Shown here piece after piece: positions 6,087 through 17,103 of a DNA stretch of 49,278 nt (positions are counted from its first letter, which is position 1; the number at the start of each line of letters is the position of its first letter). Origin of the DNA: Clostridia bacterium (lineage in GTDB: Bacteria > Bacillota > Clostridia > RUG12999); NCBI GenBank assembly GCA_022801925.1, contig JAAWTG010000018.1, forward strand, positions 1 through 49,278, given 5' to 3'. The notes beneath the pieces were generated by a model. It had not been told where the DNA came from. It did no database searches and worked only from the letters and a program-made list of their open reading frames with translations. The position numbers and the translations under genes were made by a program.

Positions 6087-6125
6087 ATGGACAAGAAAAA
6101 GAGCCGTTGCAGGAGAAATGCCTAA
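6087..6125 (+). CDS. 12-residue upstream open frame, in frame with glgB
   Basis: ATG at 6087 follows GAGGTGG at a normal distance and encodes MDKKKSRCRRNA, then TAA. The 26 codons between this TAA and the GTG at 6204 contain no stop, are in the same frame as glgB, and encode Lys/Glu-rich residues like the GlgB tail. It is either a leader peptide gene or the original GlgB start, cut off by one nonsense codon. Confidence 0.4.
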   Translation: MDKKKSRCRRNA

Positions 6126-6212
6126 ACAGCAGAATCTGACAGTGGTGTATCAATAGAAAAAAAGAAAAATAAGCCGGGAACATTTGATGTCTCGGCAGAA
6201 AAGGTGACAAAA

Positions 6213-8300
6213 ATGAAAAAAACAGAAACCAAAAAAGCAGCGCAAAAGAAAAAGACGACAGTTGTTCGTGCAAAGACAAAGCCGGCAGCCGAGAACAAAG
6301 CAGCGGCACAAATAAAAACGGTGACGGAAACAAAGACGGCTGCAAGCGCCGAAGTTCAGGCAGCAAAAAAAACAGAAAAAAAGCCGTCTGTGAAAAAGAC
6401 ACAGAAAAAAACTCCTATGAAAAAAACAGCTGTAATCAGTCCGGCACAAGCCTTTTTAAATGGAGAGAATTTTAAGGCGTATGAATATTTCGGCTGCCAC
6501 CCGCATAAAGATGGTGCTAAAGATGGGTATATTTTCCGCGTTTGGGCGCCTCATGCAAAATGTGTTAAAATTGTCGGTGATTTTAATAGTTGGAACGGTG
6601 AGCTGGCGCCGGAAATGAAACAGGTAGAAAAAGGTATTTGGGAGGGAGTCGTAGAAGGTCTGCAGATCTATGATAATTACAAATATTACATAGAGAAAGC
6701 AGACGGCGACTGGATTTACAAAAGCGATCCCTATGGTATTCACATGGAAACCCGCCCCGGAACGGCGAGCAAAGTGTATTCTTTGGAAGGATTCAAGTGG
6801 GAAGACGCCCAGTACCGGCGGGCAAAATCAAACAAGAAATTTTTGCAAAATCCGGTCAATATTTATGAGGTGCATTTTGGTTCATGGAAGCAGCATAAAG
6901 ATGGTTCATTCTATAGCTATACCAAAATGGCAGAAAAATTGATTCCTTATGTGAAAAGCATGGGATATACACATATTGAACTGATGCCAATTTCGGAATA
7001 TCCGTATGACCCATCGTGGGGCTATCAGGTCACCGGATATTATGCACCCACTTCCCGTTATGGTACGCCACACGATTTTATGTATTTTGTCAATGAATGC
7101 CATAAAGCGGGAATTGGTGTTATTTTAGATTGGGTAGGCGCTCATTTTCCCAAAGATGCAAATGGTCTGTATGAATTTGATGGTCAGTGCTGCTATGAAG
7201 ATGAAGACCCGCTGCGCAATGAACATCCGGAATGGAATACAAGGATTTTTAACTATGGAAAACCGGAAGTACAATCTTTCCTGATTTCTAATGCGCTTTA
7301 TTGGTTAGAGAAATTCCATATTGATGGATTGCGTGTAGATGCCGTGGCATCCATGTTATATCTGGATTATGGAAAACAGGGCAGGGAATGGAGACCCAAT
7401 AAATATGGTTCCAATGAAAATCTGGAAGCGATTGCATTCCTGCGCAAATTAAATGGGCAAGTCTTTTTGGCAAACAAGTCAGCGCTGATGATTGCAGAAG
7501 AATCAACTGCATTTCCAATGGTTACAAAACCAGGTTATGATGGGGGATTAGGGTTTAATTTAAAATGGAACATGGGCTGGATGAACGACATGCTGCAATA
7601 TATGTCTACTGACCCCTTGTTCCGCAAAAACATTCATGGTAATCTCACATTTTCACTTTCCTATGCATTTTCAGAAAACTATGTTTTGCCGTTGTCCCAC
7701 GATGAAGTGGTTTACGGAAAATGCTCTATGATTGGCAAGATGCCGGGAGATTATGACGAAAAATTTGGGAATTTGCGTGCATTCTATGGTTATATGATGG
7801 CGCATCCTGGCAAAAAAATGTCATTTATGGGTAACGAGTTTGCACAATTTGTGGAATGGAACTATGAAAAAGAACTGGATTGGCTGCTTTTAGATTACAA
7901 GAAGCACAAACAAATCAAGGAGTTTGTGAAAGATTTAAATTTCTTCTATTTGGAAAATTCACCAATGTGGCAGAATGATGCAGATTGGGAAGGATTTAAA
8001 TGGATTAGTCATGACGACCATGAACAAAATATTATTTCTTTCCGTCGGATTGACAAAAAGGGAAAAGAAATTATTGTTGTATGTAATTTTGCACCTGTCC
8101 GAAGAGAAAACTACCGTATTGGTATTCCGGCAGCGGGTGAATATATACCGGTATTATCCAGTGACGATGAAAAATATGGCGGAACCGGAGAACAACTGGA
8201 GTCTATAAAAAGTGAGGCAGAAGCAATGCATGGTTATGAAAATAGCGTATGCCTGACATTGCCGCCAATTTCTACGGTATATTATCAGAAAAAGAAATAA
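6213..8300 (+). CDS. glgB: 1,4-alpha-glucan branching enzyme
   Basis: The predicted protein has 695 aa. Residues 1-~72 are a Lys/Ala/Thr-rich tail absent from textbook GlgB. A CBM48-type domain follows (YIFRVWAPHAKCVKIVGDFN) and then a GH13 barrel. Catalytic residues by position: Asp376 in LRVDAVASMLY, Glu429 in IAEES, Asp497 in LSHDEVVYGK. The enzyme makes alpha-1,6 branches in glycogen. ATG 6213 is preceded by AAGGTG at six bases; GTG 6204 is a possible alternative. It opens the glycogen gene row glgB-C-D-A-P. The tail could bind polyanions or anchor the enzyme; that is speculation from composition. Confidence 0.95.
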   Translation: MKKTETKKAAQKKKTTVVRAKTKPAAENKAAAQIKTVTETKTAASAEVQAAKKTEKKPSVKKTQKKTPMKKTAVISPAQAFLNGENFKAYEYFGCHPHKDGAKDGYIFRVWAPHAKCVKIVGDFNSWNGELAPEMKQVEKGIWEGVVEGLQIYDNYKYYIEKADGDWIYKSDPYGIHMETRPGTASKVYSLEGFKWEDAQYRRAKSNKKFLQNPVNIYEVHFGSWKQHKDGSFYSYTKMAEKLIPYVKSMGYTHIELMPISEYPYDPSWGYQVTGYYAPTSRYGTPHDFMYFVNECHKAGIGVILDWVGAHFPKDANGLYEFDGQCCYEDEDPLRNEHPEWNTRIFNYGKPEVQSFLISNALYWLEKFHIDGLRVDAVASMLYLDYGKQGREWRPNKYGSNENLEAIAFLRKLNGQVFLANKSALMIAEESTAFPMVTKPGYDGGLGFNLKWNMGWMNDMLQYMSTDPLFRKNIHGNLTFSLSYAFSENYVLPLSHDEVVYGKCSMIGKMPGDYDEKFGNLRAFYGYMMAHPGKKMSFMGNEFAQFVEWNYEKELDWLLLDYKKHKQIKEFVKDLNFFYLENSPMWQNDADWEGFKWISHDDHEQNIISFRRIDKKGKEIIVVCNFAPVRRENYRIGIPAAGEYIPVLSSDDEKYGGTGEQLESIKSEAEAMHGYENSVCLTLPPISTVYYQKKK

Positions 8301-8360
8301 TACAGGGGAATCCTGTCAATAAAAGCTGCATTGGGGTTGGCAGCAGATTGGAGTAGCGTT

Positions 8361-9554
8361 ATGTTAAAAAGAAGAAAAGAATGTGTTGCAATGCTGTTGG
8401 CAGGAGGTCAGGGGAGTCGTTTGAAAGTATTGACAGAAGAAACAGCAAAGCCGGCGGTTCCTTTTGGAGGAAAATACCGGATTATTGATTTCCCGTTGTC
8501 GAACTGTGTAAATTCCGGCATTGACACAGTGGGGATTTTAACGCAATATCAGCCTTTAGAACTTAATGACTATATCGGTAACGGACAGTCATGGGGACTA
8601 AATAGGAATTATGGAGGAGCGCATATTTTGCCACCATACGCGAAAAGTAAAAAATCAGAATGGTATAAAGGCACAGCGAATGCAATCTATCAAAATATGC
8701 ATTTTATTGAACTATATAATCCGGAATATGTTCTGATTCTTTCAGGAGACCATATCTATAAAATGGATTATGCAAAAATGTTGAAGTTCCATAAAGAAAA
8801 AGAAGCAGATTGTTCCATTGCGGTGATTGATGTGCCGGAGGATGAGGCGTCGCGGTTTGGTATTATGAACACTCAAGAAGATGATGCTATCTACGAATTT
8901 GAAGAAAAACCGGAAAATCCCAAAAGTACAAAGGCTTCTATGGGGATTTATATCTTCAAGTGGGATGTATTAAAAGAGTATTTAATACGCGATGAAGAGG
9001 ATTCCGAATCCTCCAATGATTTTGGGAAAAATATCATTCCGGCACTGCTGGCAGATGAGAAAAAACTTTATGCCTATTCTTTCAAGGGCTATTGGAAGGA
9101 TGTCGGAACCATAGAAAGTCTGTGGGAAGCAAATATGGATTTGCTCAATCCCAACATTCCACTCAATATCAAAGACCCAAATTTCAGAATTTATGCCCGA
9201 AACTATGCGCAGCCACCGAGTTTTGTGTCCAAGAGTGCTAAAATTGACAATTCCATGGTAGCAGAAGGCTGCAATATTAAAGGAACGGTGGAAAATTCTA
9301 TTGTCTTTACCGGCTGCACGATAGAAGAAGATGCAGTGGTGAAAGACAGCGTAGTAATGCCGAATACTACAATTCAAGGCGGGGCGAAAGTGGAATATGC
9401 CATCATTGGTGAATGTGCGGAAATTGGCAAGGATGCAGTTGTCGGCAAAGACCCACTGTATTGTATCAATTCGGAAGAATGGGGTATTAGTGTTGTGGGC
9501 AGCGGCAAAAAAATTGCGGCTGGTCGTGTCATTAAAGAAAAAGAAATTGTTTGA
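8361..9554 (+). CDS. glgC: Glucose-1-phosphate adenylyltransferase, catalytic subunit
   Basis: The predicted protein has 397 aa. The N-terminal nucleotidyltransferase motif LAGGQGSRL, then [15 protein letters not shown], and [12 protein letters not shown] mark ADP-glucose pyrophosphorylase. The C-terminal third has left-handed beta-helix repeats (isoleucine/valine every sixth residue). It converts glucose-1-phosphate and ATP to ADP-glucose, the committed step of glycogen synthesis. ATG 8361 has GGAG seven bases upstream; an upstream TTG at 8331 does not. In Clostridia GlgC works together with GlgD, encoded next. Confidence 0.95.
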
Positions 9555-9660
9555 TGAGTGAGTTGCGAAATGAATAAGTCTTTTATTATTCTGTAGATGA
9601 TAAAGGAAAAGGGTTATGTTTCAAAAATACCGGTCTACAGCGGAGAAAATAGGTGATAAT

Positions 9661-10776
9661 ATGAAAATGGTAGGCATAATTTTTTCTAATATATATGATG
9701 CTACCATGGGTGAATTAACGAAACACAGAACGGTAGCCTCACTGCCTTTTGGCGGACGGTACCGGCAAATTGATTTTGTGTTGTCAAATATGGTGAATTC
9801 CGGCATGTCTTCTGTTGGAATCATTACGAAATACAATTACCAGTCCTTGATGGACCATCTGGGTTCCTGCAGTGAATGGGATATGAACCGGAAAAACGGA
9901 GGCGTTTTTATTCTGCCGCCGTTTGGAACCGGCGTCACGAGTATCTATAAAGGGAAAATTGAAGCGTTATATGGAGCAGTTGCTTTTCTGGAAAAAGTAA
10001 ACGCTGAATATGTTGTGATGTCTGATTCTACTGTGCTTTGCAACATTGATTATGATAAAGTGTTGGAACAGCATATTGCTTCTGGGGCAGATGTTACAGT
10101 GATTGCGAACAAAGAACAGATGGAGGCGACTGAAGTACAAGATTTGGTATTGGAAGTGGACAATCAAGGGGAAATGACTGATTTGGCAATCCAATGCGCG
10201 GCGGGAGAAAATTCCTATATTGGAATGGGCATGTACATTATTAACAGACAACTGTTGTTAGATACCATTCAGGATTCTGTGGCGCACGGACTCTATCATT
10301 TTGAACGTGATTTTCTGCAACGCAAATATATGAAGAATCAAATCAATATCGGTGTCTATCATTTTGAACGTACTGTTTTACGCAACCGTAATATTACTGC
10401 ATATTTCAGAAACAATTTAAAATTGATGGATGACAAAGTGCGTGGTGAAATTTTCTGTGAGAACTCACCTATCTACACAAAAGTACGTGACGAGGTGCCG
10501 ACGTACTATGGTGACGATTGCGAAGTAGACAATTGCCTGATTGCTGATGGATGTAAAATTGATGGAGTGGTGGAAGATAGTATTCTTTTCCGTGATGTTA
10601 CGATAGAAAAGGGCTGCCATGTGAAAAACTGTATTATTATGCAGGGAACGACGGTGAGTAAAGGCACTAATTTGGAATATGTCATTATTGATAAGGATGT
10701 TGTTGTCACAGAAAACAGGACGCTGATTGGTGCGGATACCACGCCGATTATCATAAATAAAGGCGAAAAAGTATAA
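9661..10776 (+). CDS. glgD: GlgD subunit of glucose-1-phosphate adenylyltransferase
   Basis: The predicted protein has 371 aa from ATG 9661, where it begins MKMVGIIFSNIYD as is usual for GlgD; ATG 9616, also with a good site (AAAGGA), would add 15 residues. The fold is that of GlgC (SLPFGGRYRQIDFVLSN, NGGVFILPP) but the GGxGxRL nucleotide loop is missing, as known for GlgD. It is thought to be a regulatory or activity-enhancing partner of GlgC. It lies about 105 bp behind glgC. Confidence 0.93.
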   Translation: MKMVGIIFSNIYDATMGELTKHRTVASLPFGGRYRQIDFVLSNMVNSGMSSVGIITKYNYQSLMDHLGSCSEWDMNRKNGGVFILPPFGTGVTSIYKGKIEALYGAVAFLEKVNAEYVVMSDSTVLCNIDYDKVLEQHIASGADVTVIANKEQMEATEVQDLVLEVDNQGEMTDLAIQCAAGENSYIGMGMYIINRQLLLDTIQDSVAHGLYHFERDFLQRKYMKNQINIGVYHFERTVLRNRNITAYFRNNLKLMDDKVRGEIFCENSPIYTKVRDEVPTYYGDDCEVDNCLIADGCKIDGVVEDSILFRDVTIEKGCHVKNCIIMQGTTVSKGTNLEYVIIDKDVVVTENRTLIGADTTPIIINKGEKV

Positions 10777-10794
10777 AATATATTGGATATATTA

Positions 10795-10823
10795 TTGTAT
10801 TTATACAGATAACGTGATATAAT
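10795..10823 (+). promoter_or_regulatory. Promoter of glgA
   Basis: TTGTAT (10795-10800), 17-bp spacer, TATAAT (10818-10823), located 18 bp behind glgD. It gives glgA and glgP their own transcript in addition to read-through from glgBCD. Confidence 0.65.
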
Positions 10824-10829
10824 AACCGC

Positions 10830-11046
10830 AGAAGTGATTATGATAGAATGAAAAGCGTCGCCGAAACATTTCGTTGCTTTACCTGAAAGTAGAAAATCAA
10901 GTACCAAGATATATATGGAATCTGCTGGGAATCGGAATGAGAGAAAAAGTTTGCATTTCCGGCAAAAGCAGCAATTTGATAAAGACGATACGACAGGTTG
11001 ATACTATAGCTGTATGCCGGTTATGGTATCAACTTTTGTTGTGAGT
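10830..11046 (+). promoter_or_regulatory. Long structured leader of glgA with terminator-like hairpin (candidate attenuator)
   Basis: Between the promoter and the AGGAGG site of glgA lie about 220 nt without a convincing gene. Visible pairings: CGAAA/TTTCG near 10861-10872 inside AAAGC/GCTTT arms; CTGCT with AGCAG enclosing CGGAATG with CATTTCCG (about 10920-10975); and last a 12-bp hairpin, GTTGATACTATA (10996-11007) with TATGGTATCAAC (11021-11032), followed by TTTTGTT. A terminator just before a ribosome binding site behind a folded leader is the layout of riboswitches and attenuators. I recognise no known class; T-box and c-di-AMP signatures are absent. Confidence 0.5.
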
Positions 11047-11059
11047 AGGAGGAGAAGCT

Positions 11060-12490
11060 ATGAAAATATTGTTTGCAGCCAGTGAAGCAGTACCCTATGT
11101 GAAAACGGGAGGGCTGGGGGATGTGGCGTATGCCTTGCCGTGTGAACTTGCAGGCAGAAATGATATGGAAGTTTGTGTGATTCTGCCATATTATAAATCA
11201 ATCAAGGATAATAGGGACTCCAATATTGAATATGTGATGCATTTTGATATGCCGCTCGCATGGCGCAATACCTATGTTGGTATTTTTAAAGCGCGCAACG
11301 AAGAGAAAAATATCATATACTATTTTATTGACAACGATTATTATTTTGGAGATCGCGGTAGTATCTATGGTGAATACGATGATGGGGAACGCTTTACTTT
11401 TTTTAGTAAGGCGATTTTGGAATGTATACAACACATTGGTTTTTACCCGGACATCATTCACTGCAATGATTGGCAAACGGCGTTGGTACCGCTCTATTAC
11501 AGAGCATTTTTTGAACATCATGATGGGTATCAAAATATAAAAACAATGTTTACAATTCATAATATTGAATATCAGGGAAAAGTACCAAATGAATTTTTGT
11601 CAGAGGTAATAGGAGTTTCGGAATATTGGCGTGACGCAGTATCCTATGATGGCTGTATCAATTTTATGAAAAGTGCTGTTTTGTTGGCGGACAAAGTTAC
11701 GACCGTATCGGAAACCTATTCTCATGAAATTCGTCATGCCTATTTCGCACATGGACTAGAGAGTGTTCTGAGGCAAAATGAATATAAGTTGGTTGGAATT
11801 ACCAACGGTATTGACCCAGAAATATATAATCCGGTGACCGATAAATGCTTATATACAAATTTTGGATGCGGAGAACTGAAGAAAAAGTATGAAAACAAGC
11901 GTTATCTACAACAAAAATTGGAATTGCCCGTTCGTGATGATACGCCGGTGATTGGTATGATTACACGTCTGGTATCACATAAAGGTCTGGATTTGGTAAA
12001 GTTCATTGGTGAAGAAATGCTCTCACGCGATTTGCAGTTTGTTGTGGTTGGTACAGGAGACAGGGAATTTGAGGACTTTTTTAAATGGCTTGCCTATACC
12101 CATGGAGATAAAATTGCAGTTAGAATCGCTTTTGACCCTGTGCTTGCTAATCAGATTTATGCGGGAGCGGATTTGTTTTTGATGCCATCAAAGAGCGAAC
12201 CTTGCGGACTTTCTCAGTTGATTGCTATGCGTTATGGTACCATTCCAATTGTACGCGAGACAGGCGGATTAGTAGATACTGTACCTGCATATAATCCTGA
12301 AACAGGAGAAGGGCGAGGGTTTACATTTAAGTCCTATAATGCACATGACATGTTAGGCGCAATAGACCATGCATGTCATCTTTATCATGATTTGCCGCAA
12401 CGCAAAAAATTGATAAAGAATATTATGAACTATGACAGCAGCTGGAAACAGTCGGCAGACCGATATCTGGATGTATATTATCATATGTAG
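11060..12490 (+). CDS. glgA: Glycogen synthase, ADP-glucose type (GT5)
   Basis: The predicted protein has 476 aa, normal for bacterial GlgA. It opens with MKILFAASEAVPYVKTGGLGDV, where Lys15 in KTGGL binds ADP-glucose. The C-terminal GT-B half carries TRLVSHKGLD and SKSEPCGLSQLIAM with the conserved Glu-Pro-Cys-Gly. It elongates alpha-1,4-glucan chains from ADP-glucose. AGGAGG lies seven bases before ATG 11060. It follows glgD after a 283-bp gap that holds its own promoter and a folded leader, and it lies 73 bp ahead of glgP. Confidence 0.96.
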   Translation: MKILFAASEAVPYVKTGGLGDVAYALPCELAGRNDMEVCVILPYYKSIKDNRDSNIEYVMHFDMPLAWRNTYVGIFKARNEEKNIIYYFIDNDYYFGDRGSIYGEYDDGERFTFFSKAILECIQHIGFYPDIIHCNDWQTALVPLYYRAFFEHHDGYQNIKTMFTIHNIEYQGKVPNEFLSEVIGVSEYWRDAVSYDGCINFMKSAVLLADKVTTVSETYSHEIRHAYFAHGLESVLRQNEYKLVGITNGIDPEIYNPVTDKCLYTNFGCGELKKKYENKRYLQQKLELPVRDDTPVIGMITRLVSHKGLDLVKFIGEEMLSRDLQFVVVGTGDREFEDFFKWLAYTHGDKIAVRIAFDPVLANQIYAGADLFLMPSKSEPCGLSQLIAMRYGTIPIVRETGGLVDTVPAYNPETGEGRGFTFKSYNAHDMLGAIDHACHLYHDLPQRKKLIKNIMNYDSSWKQSADRYLDVYYHM

Positions 12491-12563: not shown

Positions 12564-14975
12564 ATGGAACAAAAGAAGGCATTAGAATTGCTGGATAATG
12601 AGTGTTTGCAGCAATATGGCTGCTATGCTTCAGAGGCAACGCAACAGCAAATATATAGGGCGTTATGTGTAGTTGTTAGAAATTTACTGACAAAAAAAAG
12701 AAAAACATTTATGGATAAATGTGAAAAAAAGGAAGCCAAACAAGTCTATTATATGTCAATGGAATTTTTGGTGGGTACTTCTCTGCATAATAATCTATAT
12801 AATTTGGGTCTGGAATCTACTTTTGAAAGTGTATTGAAAAAATTGAAAATTGATATCCATGATTTATATAAGATAGAACCGGATGCCGGATTAGGAAACG
12901 GTGGTTTGGGACGGCTGGCGTCTTGTTATATGGATTCTGCAACGTCGCTGTCTATGCCTGTGACAGGTTTTTCCATTCGATATGAATTTGGTATTTTCAA
13001 ACAGAAAATCGTAGACGGCTGGCAGATGGAATTCCCTGATGACTGGCTTGGCATGGGAGATGTGTGGTTAGTGCAACGTCCCGATGATGCTTTTGAAGTG
13101 AAATTCGGCGGACGAGTGGAGGAAAGCTATGACAATGGTCGTTATACAGCAAACCAAGTAGATTATAATAGTGTAATAGCAGTACCTTATGATATGTTCA
13201 TTTCCGGTCACGGTTCGGGCGCAGTGAACAAGTTAGTGTTGTGGGGAGCAAAATCGCCCAAAAGTCTTGACATGACAGCATTCTCGCGCGGAGAATATGT
13301 AAAAGCATTGGAAAACAACACCATGGCGGAAGTGATTTCCAAAATCTTATATCCTGCTGATGACCACATTGACGGAAAACGTTTGCGGCTAAAACAGCAA
13401 TATTTACTGGTTTCCGCATCTTTGCAGAGCATTTTGCAGAACCATTTGAAGAATTATCAAACATTGGATAATTTAGCCGATAAAGTGGCGATTCACATTA
13501 ATGATACGCACCCTGCGCTATGTGTGCCGGAACTAATGCGGTTGTTGGTAGATGAGTATGGTTATGGCTGGGATGAGGCTTGGGAAATTACCGGTAAGAC
13601 ATTGGCATATACCAACCATACCGTTATGAGTGAGGCACTGGAACGTTGGTCGGAAACGCTGTTTCAGGAACAACTGCCGCGCGTTTATCAAATCGTATGT
13701 GAAATTAACCGCCGTCTGTTAGAACAGCTTAACGAAGTATATCCAGGCGATATTCCAAAAATTGAGTATATGGCGGTAATTGCCCATGGAGAAATCAGAA
13801 TGGCGAATCTGTGTCTGGCATGTTGCCATAAAGTCAACGGTGTTTCGCAGCTTCACAGTGATATTTTGAAAAATAGTATTTTCCGTGATTATTACCAAAT
13901 TGGAAAAGAAAAGTTTACGAATGTTACTAATGGTATTGCCTATCGCAGATGGCTTTGTCAATCCAATCCGGAATTGACGAGTTTGTTGACGGACTTAATT
14001 GGAGATTCTTTTATTCAAGATGCTTCGCAGCTTGAAAAATTGATGAAATTCCAGAATGATAAAACAGTTTTGGAAAACCTGAAAAAGGTGAAGCAGAATA
14101 ATAAAGTCCGTCTCAGTAATTATATTGTAAAAGCAAATGGTATTAAGGTAGACCCGGATTCTATTTTTGATGTACAAATCAAACGATTACATGAATATAA
14201 ACGGCAGTTGCTGGATGTATTGCATATTTTGTATCTGTACAATCAAATCAAAGTGAATCCAAATCTGGATATGCCGCCCCGTACCTTTATTTTTGCGGCA
14301 AAAGCCTCCAGTGGCTATTTTATGGCGAAACAGATTATCCGTCTGATTGTGGCTGTTTCAGCATTGGTCAATGCCGACCCTATTGTGCGTGATAAAATTA
14401 AAGTTGTCTTTATTGAGGACTATAAAGTTTCGTTGGCGGAAATTATCATACCGGCAGCAGAGATTTCTGAACAGATTTCTGTAGCAGGAAAGGAAGCGTC
14501 CGGTACCGGTAACATGAAATTGATGATTAACGGTGCAGTGACCATTGGAACAATGGACGGCGCGAATGTGGAGATTTTCCAGCAAGTAGGCGAGGAAAAT
14601 ATGTTCTTGTTCGGTCTGCGTGCGGACGAGGTGGAAGCGCTTTGGCAGAAGGGCTATGATCCGCTGGTATATTGCCGTGAAAACGCACAACTCAAAGCAG
14701 TGCTGGATATGCTGATGAGTGACGTGTTGGGAACTCGTTTTGATGATATTGCGAAGTCCTTATTATCCAACAGTTTCGGCGCGGCGGATGCCTATATGAC
14801 ACTGGCAGATTTTTCTGATTATGCGAGGGCGCAGCAGGAGGTTTCCAAGGTATATCAGGATCAAAACAGATTCATGAATATGTCGCTGGTCAATATTGCA
14901 AAAGCCGGTATCTTCTCTGCTGACCGCTCTGTGAAAGAATATGCGGATAAAATTTGGCATATCAAAAAAATATAA
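12564..14975 (+). CDS. glgP: Glycogen/alpha-glucan phosphorylase
   Basis: The predicted protein has 803 aa. Diagnostic are YYMSMEFLVG, EPDAGLGNGGLGRLASC, and the pyridoxal-phosphate region EASGTGNMKLMING with Lys652 as the likely Schiff-base lysine, then GTMDGANVEI. It releases glucose-1-phosphate from glycogen chain ends using phosphate. The start has only a GA-rich upstream stretch (GGGGTAGAGAG), a moderate ribosome site. Its place behind glgA couples synthesis and degradation genes in one row. A strong terminator follows at 15041-15068. Confidence 0.97.
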   Translation: MEQKKALELLDNECLQQYGCYASEATQQQIYRALCVVVRNLLTKKRKTFMDKCEKKEAKQVYYMSMEFLVGTSLHNNLYNLGLESTFESVLKKLKIDIHDLYKIEPDAGLGNGGLGRLASCYMDSATSLSMPVTGFSIRYEFGIFKQKIVDGWQMEFPDDWLGMGDVWLVQRPDDAFEVKFGGRVEESYDNGRYTANQVDYNSVIAVPYDMFISGHGSGAVNKLVLWGAKSPKSLDMTAFSRGEYVKALENNTMAEVISKILYPADDHIDGKRLRLKQQYLLVSASLQSILQNHLKNYQTLDNLADKVAIHINDTHPALCVPELMRLLVDEYGYGWDEAWEITGKTLAYTNHTVMSEALERWSETLFQEQLPRVYQIVCEINRRLLEQLNEVYPGDIPKIEYMAVIAHGEIRMANLCLACCHKVNGVSQLHSDILKNSIFRDYYQIGKEKFTNVTNGIAYRRWLCQSNPELTSLLTDLIGDSFIQDASQLEKLMKFQNDKTVLENLKKVKQNNKVRLSNYIVKANGIKVDPDSIFDVQIKRLHEYKRQLLDVLHILYLYNQIKVNPNLDMPPRTFIFAAKASSGYFMAKQIIRLIVAVSALVNADPIVRDKIKVVFIEDYKVSLAEIIIPAAEISEQISVAGKEASGTGNMKLMINGAVTIGTMDGANVEIFQQVGEENMFLFGLRADEVEALWQKGYDPLVYCRENAQLKAVLDMLMSDVLGTRFDDIAKSLLSNSFGAADAYMTLADFSDYARAQQEVSKVYQDQNRFMNMSLVNIAKAGIFSADRSVKEYADKIWHIKKI

Positions 14976-15130: not shown

Positions 15131-16975
15131 ATGCAGATTTTATATGATAGTAAACAGGAATTTTATAAAAAACCGTTTGGGTGTTTGCGGCAAAATCAAA
15201 GCTGCGAAATCAATTTAAAAATTCCACGTCGCATGGCGGCACTATATGCCTGTCTTTGTATGGAAAGTGAAAACGGCTATTATAAAGAATATCCACTCTA
15301 TTGGAGCGGGTTGGAAGAAGGCTATGATTGCTATTCTTTGTCTTTTTGTTTGGAGCAAACAGGGTTATATTTCTATTTTTTTAAAGTGCACACGGAAGAG
15401 GCAGAATCTTTGGTATTCCGCTGCGGCAGTTCTAAAACAAGTATCCATATGGGAGATAAATGGCAGTTAACCTGCTTTGACGCGGACTATGAGACGCCGG
15501 AAGTCTTTAAAGGAACCGTGATGTATCAAATTTTTCCTGACCGTTTCCATCAGGCAGGAAAACCAGATTTAACAGATAAGCTAAAACCGTTTACAATACA
15601 TGAAAATAAACAGGACACGCCGTGCTACGCGCCAAATGAACAAGGGGAAGTATTGAACAATGATTTTTATGGCGGGACGCTGCAAGGAATTGAAGAAAAA
15701 CTTCCCTATTTACAAGACCTTGGCGTATCTGTCATTTATCTGAATCCGATTTTTATGGCGTTTTCCAACCACCGTTATGATACGGCAGATTACCGGCGGA
15801 TTGATCCTATGCTGGGAACAGAAGAAGATTTTCGCAGACTATGCCATAAGGCGCACGAAATGGACATGAAAATCATATTGGATGGTGTGTTTTCCCATAC
15901 CGGAAGCAACAGTATCTATTTTGATAAAGAAAATGTTTTCGGAACAGGGGTATATCATAACCCCGATTCGCCCTATGCAGCTTGGTATGATTTTCAGGAC
16001 TATCCTGAGCGCTATACCAGTTGGTGGGGCATTCAGACGCTGCCATGTGTCAATGAGATGGAGCCGGACTATGTAAAGTTTATCATAGAAGATGAAGATA
16101 GTGTTATTGCCCATTGGATGAAACTTGGCGCGGACGGGTTTCGATTGGATGTGGCAGATGAACTGCCGGATGAATTTATTAAAAAACTGCATAATAAAGT
16201 GAAACAACTCAATCCTGAAGGCTTGGTGATTGGTGAAGTGTGGGAGGACGCTTCCAACAAGGAAAGTTATGGGGTCAGAAGAAAATATTTTTCGAATACG
16301 GAATTGGATTCGGTGATGAACTATCCCTATAAAGATGCGATTTTGCACTTTACGGCAGGTGAAACTACGGCAAAATCATTAGCAGATACTGTAATGACGA
16401 TTGCAGAAAACTATCCGAAACCGGTTCTGGACTGTTTGATGAATAGTTTGTCAACACATGATACCGTGCGCGTTCTGAACACGTTTGAACATGTAGGGGG
16501 TGGTCTGGCGCGTGACCAACGGGCAGCATATATTATGCCGCCGGAGATTTACCGGCGCGCCGTAGAACGGGAGAAAATTGCGGCGTTTTTACAATATCTT
16601 TTGCCGGGCAGCCCTTGCATTTATTATGGAGATGAAGCAGGAATGCAAGGATTTGAAGACCCGCTGAATCGGCGCTATTTTCCATGGGAAACGATAGACT
16701 GGCACTTGCATGATTTTTATAAAAAATTAGGGAGCGTTAAAAAGAAATACCGTGCCTTGCGTGAGGGAACCGTAACAGCAAGTTCAAAAGAAAAAAATGT
16801 TTTTTTGCTCAAACGAAAGTGGGAACAAGAAACGCTTTGGGCGATTGTGAACATGGGACAGGAAGCATATTACTATCCGGCGGCAGACGCTAAAATGATT
16901 TTATCAAACGGAACGACAAAAGAAGAGGAGTTGCTGCAAATCAGAAGCCATGGATTTGTGTTGTTTCAGCACTAA
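15131..16975 (+). CDS. GH13 glycoside hydrolase (neopullulanase/cyclomaltodextrinase-like)
   Basis: The predicted protein has 614 aa. An N-terminal beta-sandwich (~1-125) precedes a GH13 barrel starting at VMYQIFPDRFH. Catalytic residues by position: Asp340 in GFRLDVADE, Glu369 in IGEVWED, Asp444 in STHDTVRVL. No signal peptide is seen, so it works in the cytoplasm, most likely on maltodextrins or glycogen branches freed by GlgP. Exact specificity (alpha-amylase, neopullulanase, debranching) cannot be read from the sequence. ATG 15131 follows GAGGG. It lies 155 bp behind glgP beyond a terminator, so it probably has partly separate expression. Confidence 0.9.
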   Translation: MQILYDSKQEFYKKPFGCLRQNQSCEINLKIPRRMAALYACLCMESENGYYKEYPLYWSGLEEGYDCYSLSFCLEQTGLYFYFFKVHTEEAESLVFRCGSSKTSIHMGDKWQLTCFDADYETPEVFKGTVMYQIFPDRFHQAGKPDLTDKLKPFTIHENKQDTPCYAPNEQGEVLNNDFYGGTLQGIEEKLPYLQDLGVSVIYLNPIFMAFSNHRYDTADYRRIDPMLGTEEDFRRLCHKAHEMDMKIILDGVFSHTGSNSIYFDKENVFGTGVYHNPDSPYAAWYDFQDYPERYTSWWGIQTLPCVNEMEPDYVKFIIEDEDSVIAHWMKLGADGFRLDVADELPDEFIKKLHNKVKQLNPEGLVIGEVWEDASNKESYGVRRKYFSNTELDSVMNYPYKDAILHFTAGETTAKSLADTVMTIAENYPKPVLDCLMNSLSTHDTVRVLNTFEHVGGGLARDQRAAYIMPPEIYRRAVEREKIAAFLQYLLPGSPCIYYGDEAGMQGFEDPLNRRYFPWETIDWHLHDFYKKLGSVKKKYRALREGTVTASSKEKNVFLLKRKWEQETLWAIVNMGQEAYYYPAADAKMILSNGTTKEEELLQIRSHGFVLFQH

Positions 16976-17062: not shown

Positions 17063-17103
17063 ATATAGAAAGGCAGGGAATCAAATTCCCTGCCTTTCTA
17101 TAT
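17063..17103. terminator. Bidirectional terminator with 18-bp perfect stem
   Basis: ATATAGAAAGGCAGGGAA (17063-17080) and its exact reverse complement (17086-17103) with a 5-nt loop. It lies between the rightward GH13 gene and the leftward gene at 17137-17424 and can serve both. Confidence 0.85.

Follow-up and report, generated by a model that had tools for sequence, protein, structure and literature searches.

Between glgD and glgA, the window (the whole 49,278-nt stretch of contig JAAWTG010000018.1 from Clostridia bacterium that we analysed) carries what appears, from sequence comparison, to be a genus-specific attenuator-like terminator inside the glgBCD-glgAP operon, whose putative sensor domain has been broken in this genome. 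We hold this reading with moderate confidence. The preliminary description had proposed a riboswitch or an attenuator in front of glgA: an attenuator is what currently fits the conserved hairpin best, while a riboswitch is unsupported and unlikely here, as the RNA before the hairpin folds at chance level and has apparently lost its 5' half.

The glycogen operon of the window comprises, in this order, glgB (6204-8300), glgC (8331-9554), glgD (9616-10776), glgA (11060-12490, + strand), glycogen phosphorylase (glgP, 12564-14975) and an amylase-type enzyme (15131-16975). NCBIfam models identified glgB, glgC, glgD and glgP, and glgA was recognised as an ADP-glucose-type glycogen synthase of 476 aa by NF001898 (640 bits, for a cut-off of 603); for the amylase-type gene, no NCBIfam model was above its cut-off among the matches listed. 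A perfect 19-bp inverted repeat (ATATAGAAAGGCAGGGAATC...) at 17063-17103, 3' of the amylase gene, is likely the terminator of the operon. The intergenic gap between glgD and glgA measures 283 nt and contains the AGGAGG ribosome-binding site of glgA (11047-11052, + strand).

Upstream of this site, the + strand folds into a terminator-like hairpin at 10990-11042, with a stem of 23 bp, a 5-nt loop and the U-rich tail UUUUGUUGU directly 3' of the stem. It has a folding energy of -27.3 kcal/mol (z = -6.9), which none of 200 shuffles equals, and 4 nt separate it from AGGAGG, so that the terminator-like hairpin previously placed just 5' of the ribosome-binding site is confirmed. The gene is hence preceded by a stable hairpin followed by a U-rich tract, as expected of an attenuator. 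The TransTerm-like tail score of this hairpin is -3.97, compared to -3.75 for the one at the junction of glgP and the amylase gene. The stem at 10990-11042 is A+U-rich, with G-C pairs in 5 of the 18 pairs counted, and its tail is able to pair with ACGACA; this may weaken termination. Sequestration of the ribosome-binding site was considered and rejected, since the folds predicted for the three leaders of the genus leave AGGAGG essentially unpaired.

These three leaders come from all the genomes of the genus that we found: G000, which contains the window, G001 (leader on contig CAMNSU010000104.1 of an uncultured Clostridia MAG) and the more distant sister G002. The hairpin is unchanged in all of them, and 10971-11056 is free of substitutions when G000 is compared with each of the sisters. 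Between G000 and G002, 33-52% of the fourfold sites of the operon differ. In this same comparison, the 104 sites of 10956-11059 show 2 differences (98.1% identity), a score reached by only 192 of 21,064 segments of that size. The starts of glgC and glgD are found among these equally conserved segments, so part of the conservation of 10956-11059 reflects a general conservation of start regions, and conservation by itself is no proof of a terminator. Within 9555-9710, a stretch of about 100 nt that takes in the start of glgD and the 3' half of the gap before it is nearly invariant between G000 and G002, matching the glgA leader. Further upstream in the leader, 10877-10955 shows 78% identity to G002, below the regional mean of 87%. 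Judging from these alignments, the conserved unit of the leader is the hairpin together with the preceding linker.

The RNA upstream of the hairpin gave a very different picture when folded. The whole leader has a z of -2.8, whereas the 158 nt at 10832-10989, without the hairpin, have a z of -0.05, and 90 of 200 shuffles fold equally well. What had been described as a folded leader of ~220 nt therefore owes its score to the hairpin, and the RNA preceding it is at the level of shuffled sequence. We also discarded a leader-peptide attenuator: a 1-nt indel that sets G002 apart from G000 and G001 puts the reading frames through 10917-11000 out of register. No Shine-Dalgarno sequence was seen 5' of the possible leader-peptide starts, and no T-box, RAT or other known signal was recognised in the leader.

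The claim that glgA has its own promoter stands in part. A promoter-like site conserved in G001 and G002 is present at 10795-10823 on the + strand, consisting of TTGTAT (10795-10800), a 17-nt spacer and the extended -10 TGATATAAT (TGA-TATAAT, 10818-10823), but its -35 is weak (3 of 6 consensus matches) and its -10 box falls on the left end of an interspersed repeat. This box and the first ~55-70 nt of the window's leader are in fact a degraded copy (10818-10888, + strand) of a palindromic repeat of ~100 nt. The repeat covariance model (R1), built on 18 copies, has its single match in the window at 10818-10872 (19.6 bits, E 0.083), and similarity to G001 extends the copy to ~10888, with 10810-10888 showing 95% identity to the repeat region of that genome. 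The ~100-nt sequence, found in the intergenic region of G002, recurs throughout the genomes of the genus: the covariance model counts ~31 copies for G000, 31 for G001 and 34 for G002. G007 and G035 have a few copies, whereas the 36 other relatives searched have none.

Copies of the repeat start at the extended -10 box (TGGTATAATA) and contain three hairpins, the stems of which vary among copies with compensating changes, including those at the GG/GA-TATAAT ... TTATACC/TTATATC ends. At the -35 position, 16-18 nt 5' of the repeat, the mean match to TTGACA is 3.87 for the 23 non-tandem copies of G000, against 2.57 in shuffled flanks (0 of 5000 shuffles), and in ~20 of 27 cases the reading frame that follows has the same orientation as the repeat. 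The repeat is often found in tandem, mostly 5' of same-strand genes, and many copies have TTGNNN 16-18 nt upstream. It is perhaps a mobile element with -10 boxes as its target or its cargo, and the site at its edge in the window may still be functional as a promoter. Examples of small interspersed palindromic repeats in bacteria are BOX and RUP of pneumococcus (PMC3049150). As with these, the 5' end of the glgA leader is ~100 nt long in its complete form, non-coding, made of several hairpins, mostly intergenic and repeated ~31 times per genome; it differs from them in that its left end coincides with the extended -10 of promoters, and no sequence relation to them is apparent.

In the sister genomes, the gap between glgD and glgA is larger than the 283 nt of the window, reaching ~465 nt in G001 and more in G002. 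The leaders there (G001:C104, ~6120-6584; G002:C230:11530-12035) bear extra copies of the repeat and a structured domain that is absent from the window. According to the models, both can form a three-way-junction-like domain of ~195 nt 5' of the hairpin. It is closed by a stem in which GUUGC pairs with GCAAU or GGCAAU, and it further contains a long arm, whose stem has 20 bp, and a hairpin that we call P_c. The domain has a z of -4.4 in G001 and of -6.2 in G002. All 79 pairs of the RNAalifold structure are kept between the two, with four two-sided and seven one-sided changes and none broken; as controls, slid alignments kept 37-46% of their cells paired, and the observed measures were reached by 35 of 500 shuffles. 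This covariation supports the predicted pairing, within the bounds of one comparison of two sequences for which the structure was chosen on those same sequences.

In the window, ~171 nt including the 5' strand of this domain have apparently been deleted with respect to G001, into the repeat, although in a draft assembly a misassembly is possible in principle. The junction can be placed at 10877-10888 (+ strand), a shared CTTTgCCyGAAA at which the two BLAST blocks of G001 overlap exactly. What follows, 10889-10989 (+ strand), is the 3' remnant of the domain and includes P_c (10923-10932/10955-10964 or 10922-10926/10967-10971). Model R2 matches 10785-10978 with 83.4 bits, its 3' half matching and its 5' half largely unpaired. 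With the would-be aptamer folding at chance and its 5' half lost, an orphan riboswitch is unsupported in the window; since a larger, covarying domain exists in G001 and G002, any riboswitch should be sought there. The analysis points to no ligand.

The remnant also contains a candidate antiterminator strand, 10953-10973 (GCATTTCCGGCAAAAGCAGCA, + strand), which doubles as the 3' arm of P_c and is complementary to the top of the hairpin (11008-11026), with a duplex energy of -22.6 kcal/mol. Duplexes as strong arise by chance in 25 of 2000 shuffles (1.25%) and in 41 of 618 natural pieces of 158 nt (6.6%). In the models, this pairing should exclude the complete hairpin. When prefixes of the leader are folded, it dominates briefly before completion of the hairpin in all three genomes, whereas in equilibrium folding the terminator always beats it. 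We therefore refer to the strand as a candidate only.

We sought relatives of the leader and matches to known classes at several distances. None of the 4227 families of Rfam 15 matched the window's leader at gathering score, in agreement with the earlier statement that it belongs to no known class. Weak matches (ceN44, SNORD111, RMST_2 and microRNAs) were rejected, as they correspond to eukaryotic families and are far under their gathering scores, and the only match in the contig is a tRNA elsewhere. The 3' domain is present in a single copy in the genome, and BLAST found no relative of the 3' part of the leader in 391 genomes of the class; short matches to the hairpin in these genomes were inspected and proved to be chance pieces without a hairpin. 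Searched with the model of the upstream domain, the 57 relatives from outside the genus gave a best E of 0.69 and the 79 other glgA loci one of 0.32, neither of them convincing. In these 79 loci the gap between glgD and glgA is mostly under 60 nt; in the + strand loci of the sister genus (L005-L007), the two genes overlap. The few long gaps were rejected as homologous leaders, being unrelated to the one described here. Those of L129, L147 and L152, from other Clostridia MAGs, measure 328, 277 and 159 nt and are highly folded and repeat-like. Conserved pairing, which the preliminary description had asked of relatives, is thus found within the genus, in the covarying domain of G001 and G002, and is missing from every other glgA neighbourhood examined. 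Titles and abstracts of the literature searched point to no paper on a natural glgA riboswitch or attenuator, and for interspersed repeats the matches were of a general kind.

How might such a leader work? Most likely, the hairpin stops a share of the transcripts, both those reading through from glgD and those starting at the 10795-10823 promoter, and this partial termination would set how strongly glgA and glgP are expressed compared to glgBCD. The upstream domain of the sister species could tune termination by an alternative pairing that engages the hairpin top. The window's genome has lost the 5' half of this domain, so the hairpin there is probably a fixed partial terminator, unregulated or poorly regulated. 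The sequences themselves show the hairpin and its conservation, the remnant of the repeat, the absence of half the domain and the covariation in the sisters; termination at the hairpin, its partial nature and any regulation are inferred from them. A more specific version of these events, in which the ~195-nt domain of the sisters is an orphan metabolite or protein sensor of glgA that switches 10953-10973 between P_c and the antiterminator, and in which the species of the window no longer has the sensor and has its switch locked, seems unlikely to us. The arrangement resembles intrinsic-terminator attenuators and intercistronic partial terminators in its promoter-like site, its leader, its strong U-tailed hairpin before the ribosome-binding site and its possible alternative pairing. 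It departs from known attenuators in that the 1-nt indel leaves it without a conserved leader-peptide frame, no known signal is recognised in it, and its terminator is a predicted one.

An invariant hairpin could also act on RNA rather than on transcription. As an RNA-processing or mRNA-stability element, it would shield the 3' end of the glgBCD mRNA after cleavage or block exonucleases entering glgAP, with no termination involved. A long, A+U-rich, nearly perfect duplex lying between cistrons within an operon suits such a role, as does its unvarying sequence, and we regard this as a possible, if rather unlikely, alternative; yet the stem runs straight into a U-rich tail and has a promoter-like site upstream of it, as is the case for terminators and attenuators. 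Doubtful, too, is the proposal that the intergenic region is debris of palindromic mobile or quasi-palindromic DNA, that is, repeat copies and a decaying long inverted repeat devoid of regulatory role. The compensatory changes would then be the product of template-switch correction of inverted repeats, which could indeed generate the covariation between G001 and G002. The 5' part of the region is a copy of an interspersed repeat, the domain is confined to the genus, one of whose three species lacks part of it through deletion, and the long gaps of L129, L147 and L152 share the folded, repeat-like character. Debris would not be expected to include 104 nt at the 3' end, linker GATAAAGACGATACGAC among them, that have hardly changed while fourfold sites diverged by ~38%, nor a 3' domain that is single copy.

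Most riboswitch classes recur. The domain discussed here occurs once per genome and in one genus, without a second copy or a representative outside the genus in our searches, and its covariation is between two genomes only. In G001 and G002 it is comparable to the riboswitch classes of Rfam 15 in having several helices, a terminal closing stem and a position 5' of a terminator-like hairpin, but it matches no family, and half of it is missing in the window. An intact orphan metabolite riboswitch on glgA in the window's genome, with 10832-10989 as the aptamer, is accordingly the reading that we find hardest to credit, and very improbable. It would explain the classical order of promoter, leader, terminator-like hairpin and ribosome-binding site, and could draw on the possible antiterminator strand and on the three-way-junction domain of the sisters with its covarying stem. 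The putative aptamer, however, folds like shuffled sequence in the window, a repeat remnant takes the place of its 5' half, and 10877-10955 is less similar to G002 than the region around it.

Returning to an attenuator-like terminator with a broken sensor domain, the result for the window itself is mainly a corrected annotation, in which the edge of the promoter is a repeat remnant and the hairpin alone is well supported. The three species together constitute a natural experiment, with the putative sensor either present or absent. If our reading is true, control of glycogen synthase at the RNA level would add a new control point to carbon storage in uncultured Clostridia.
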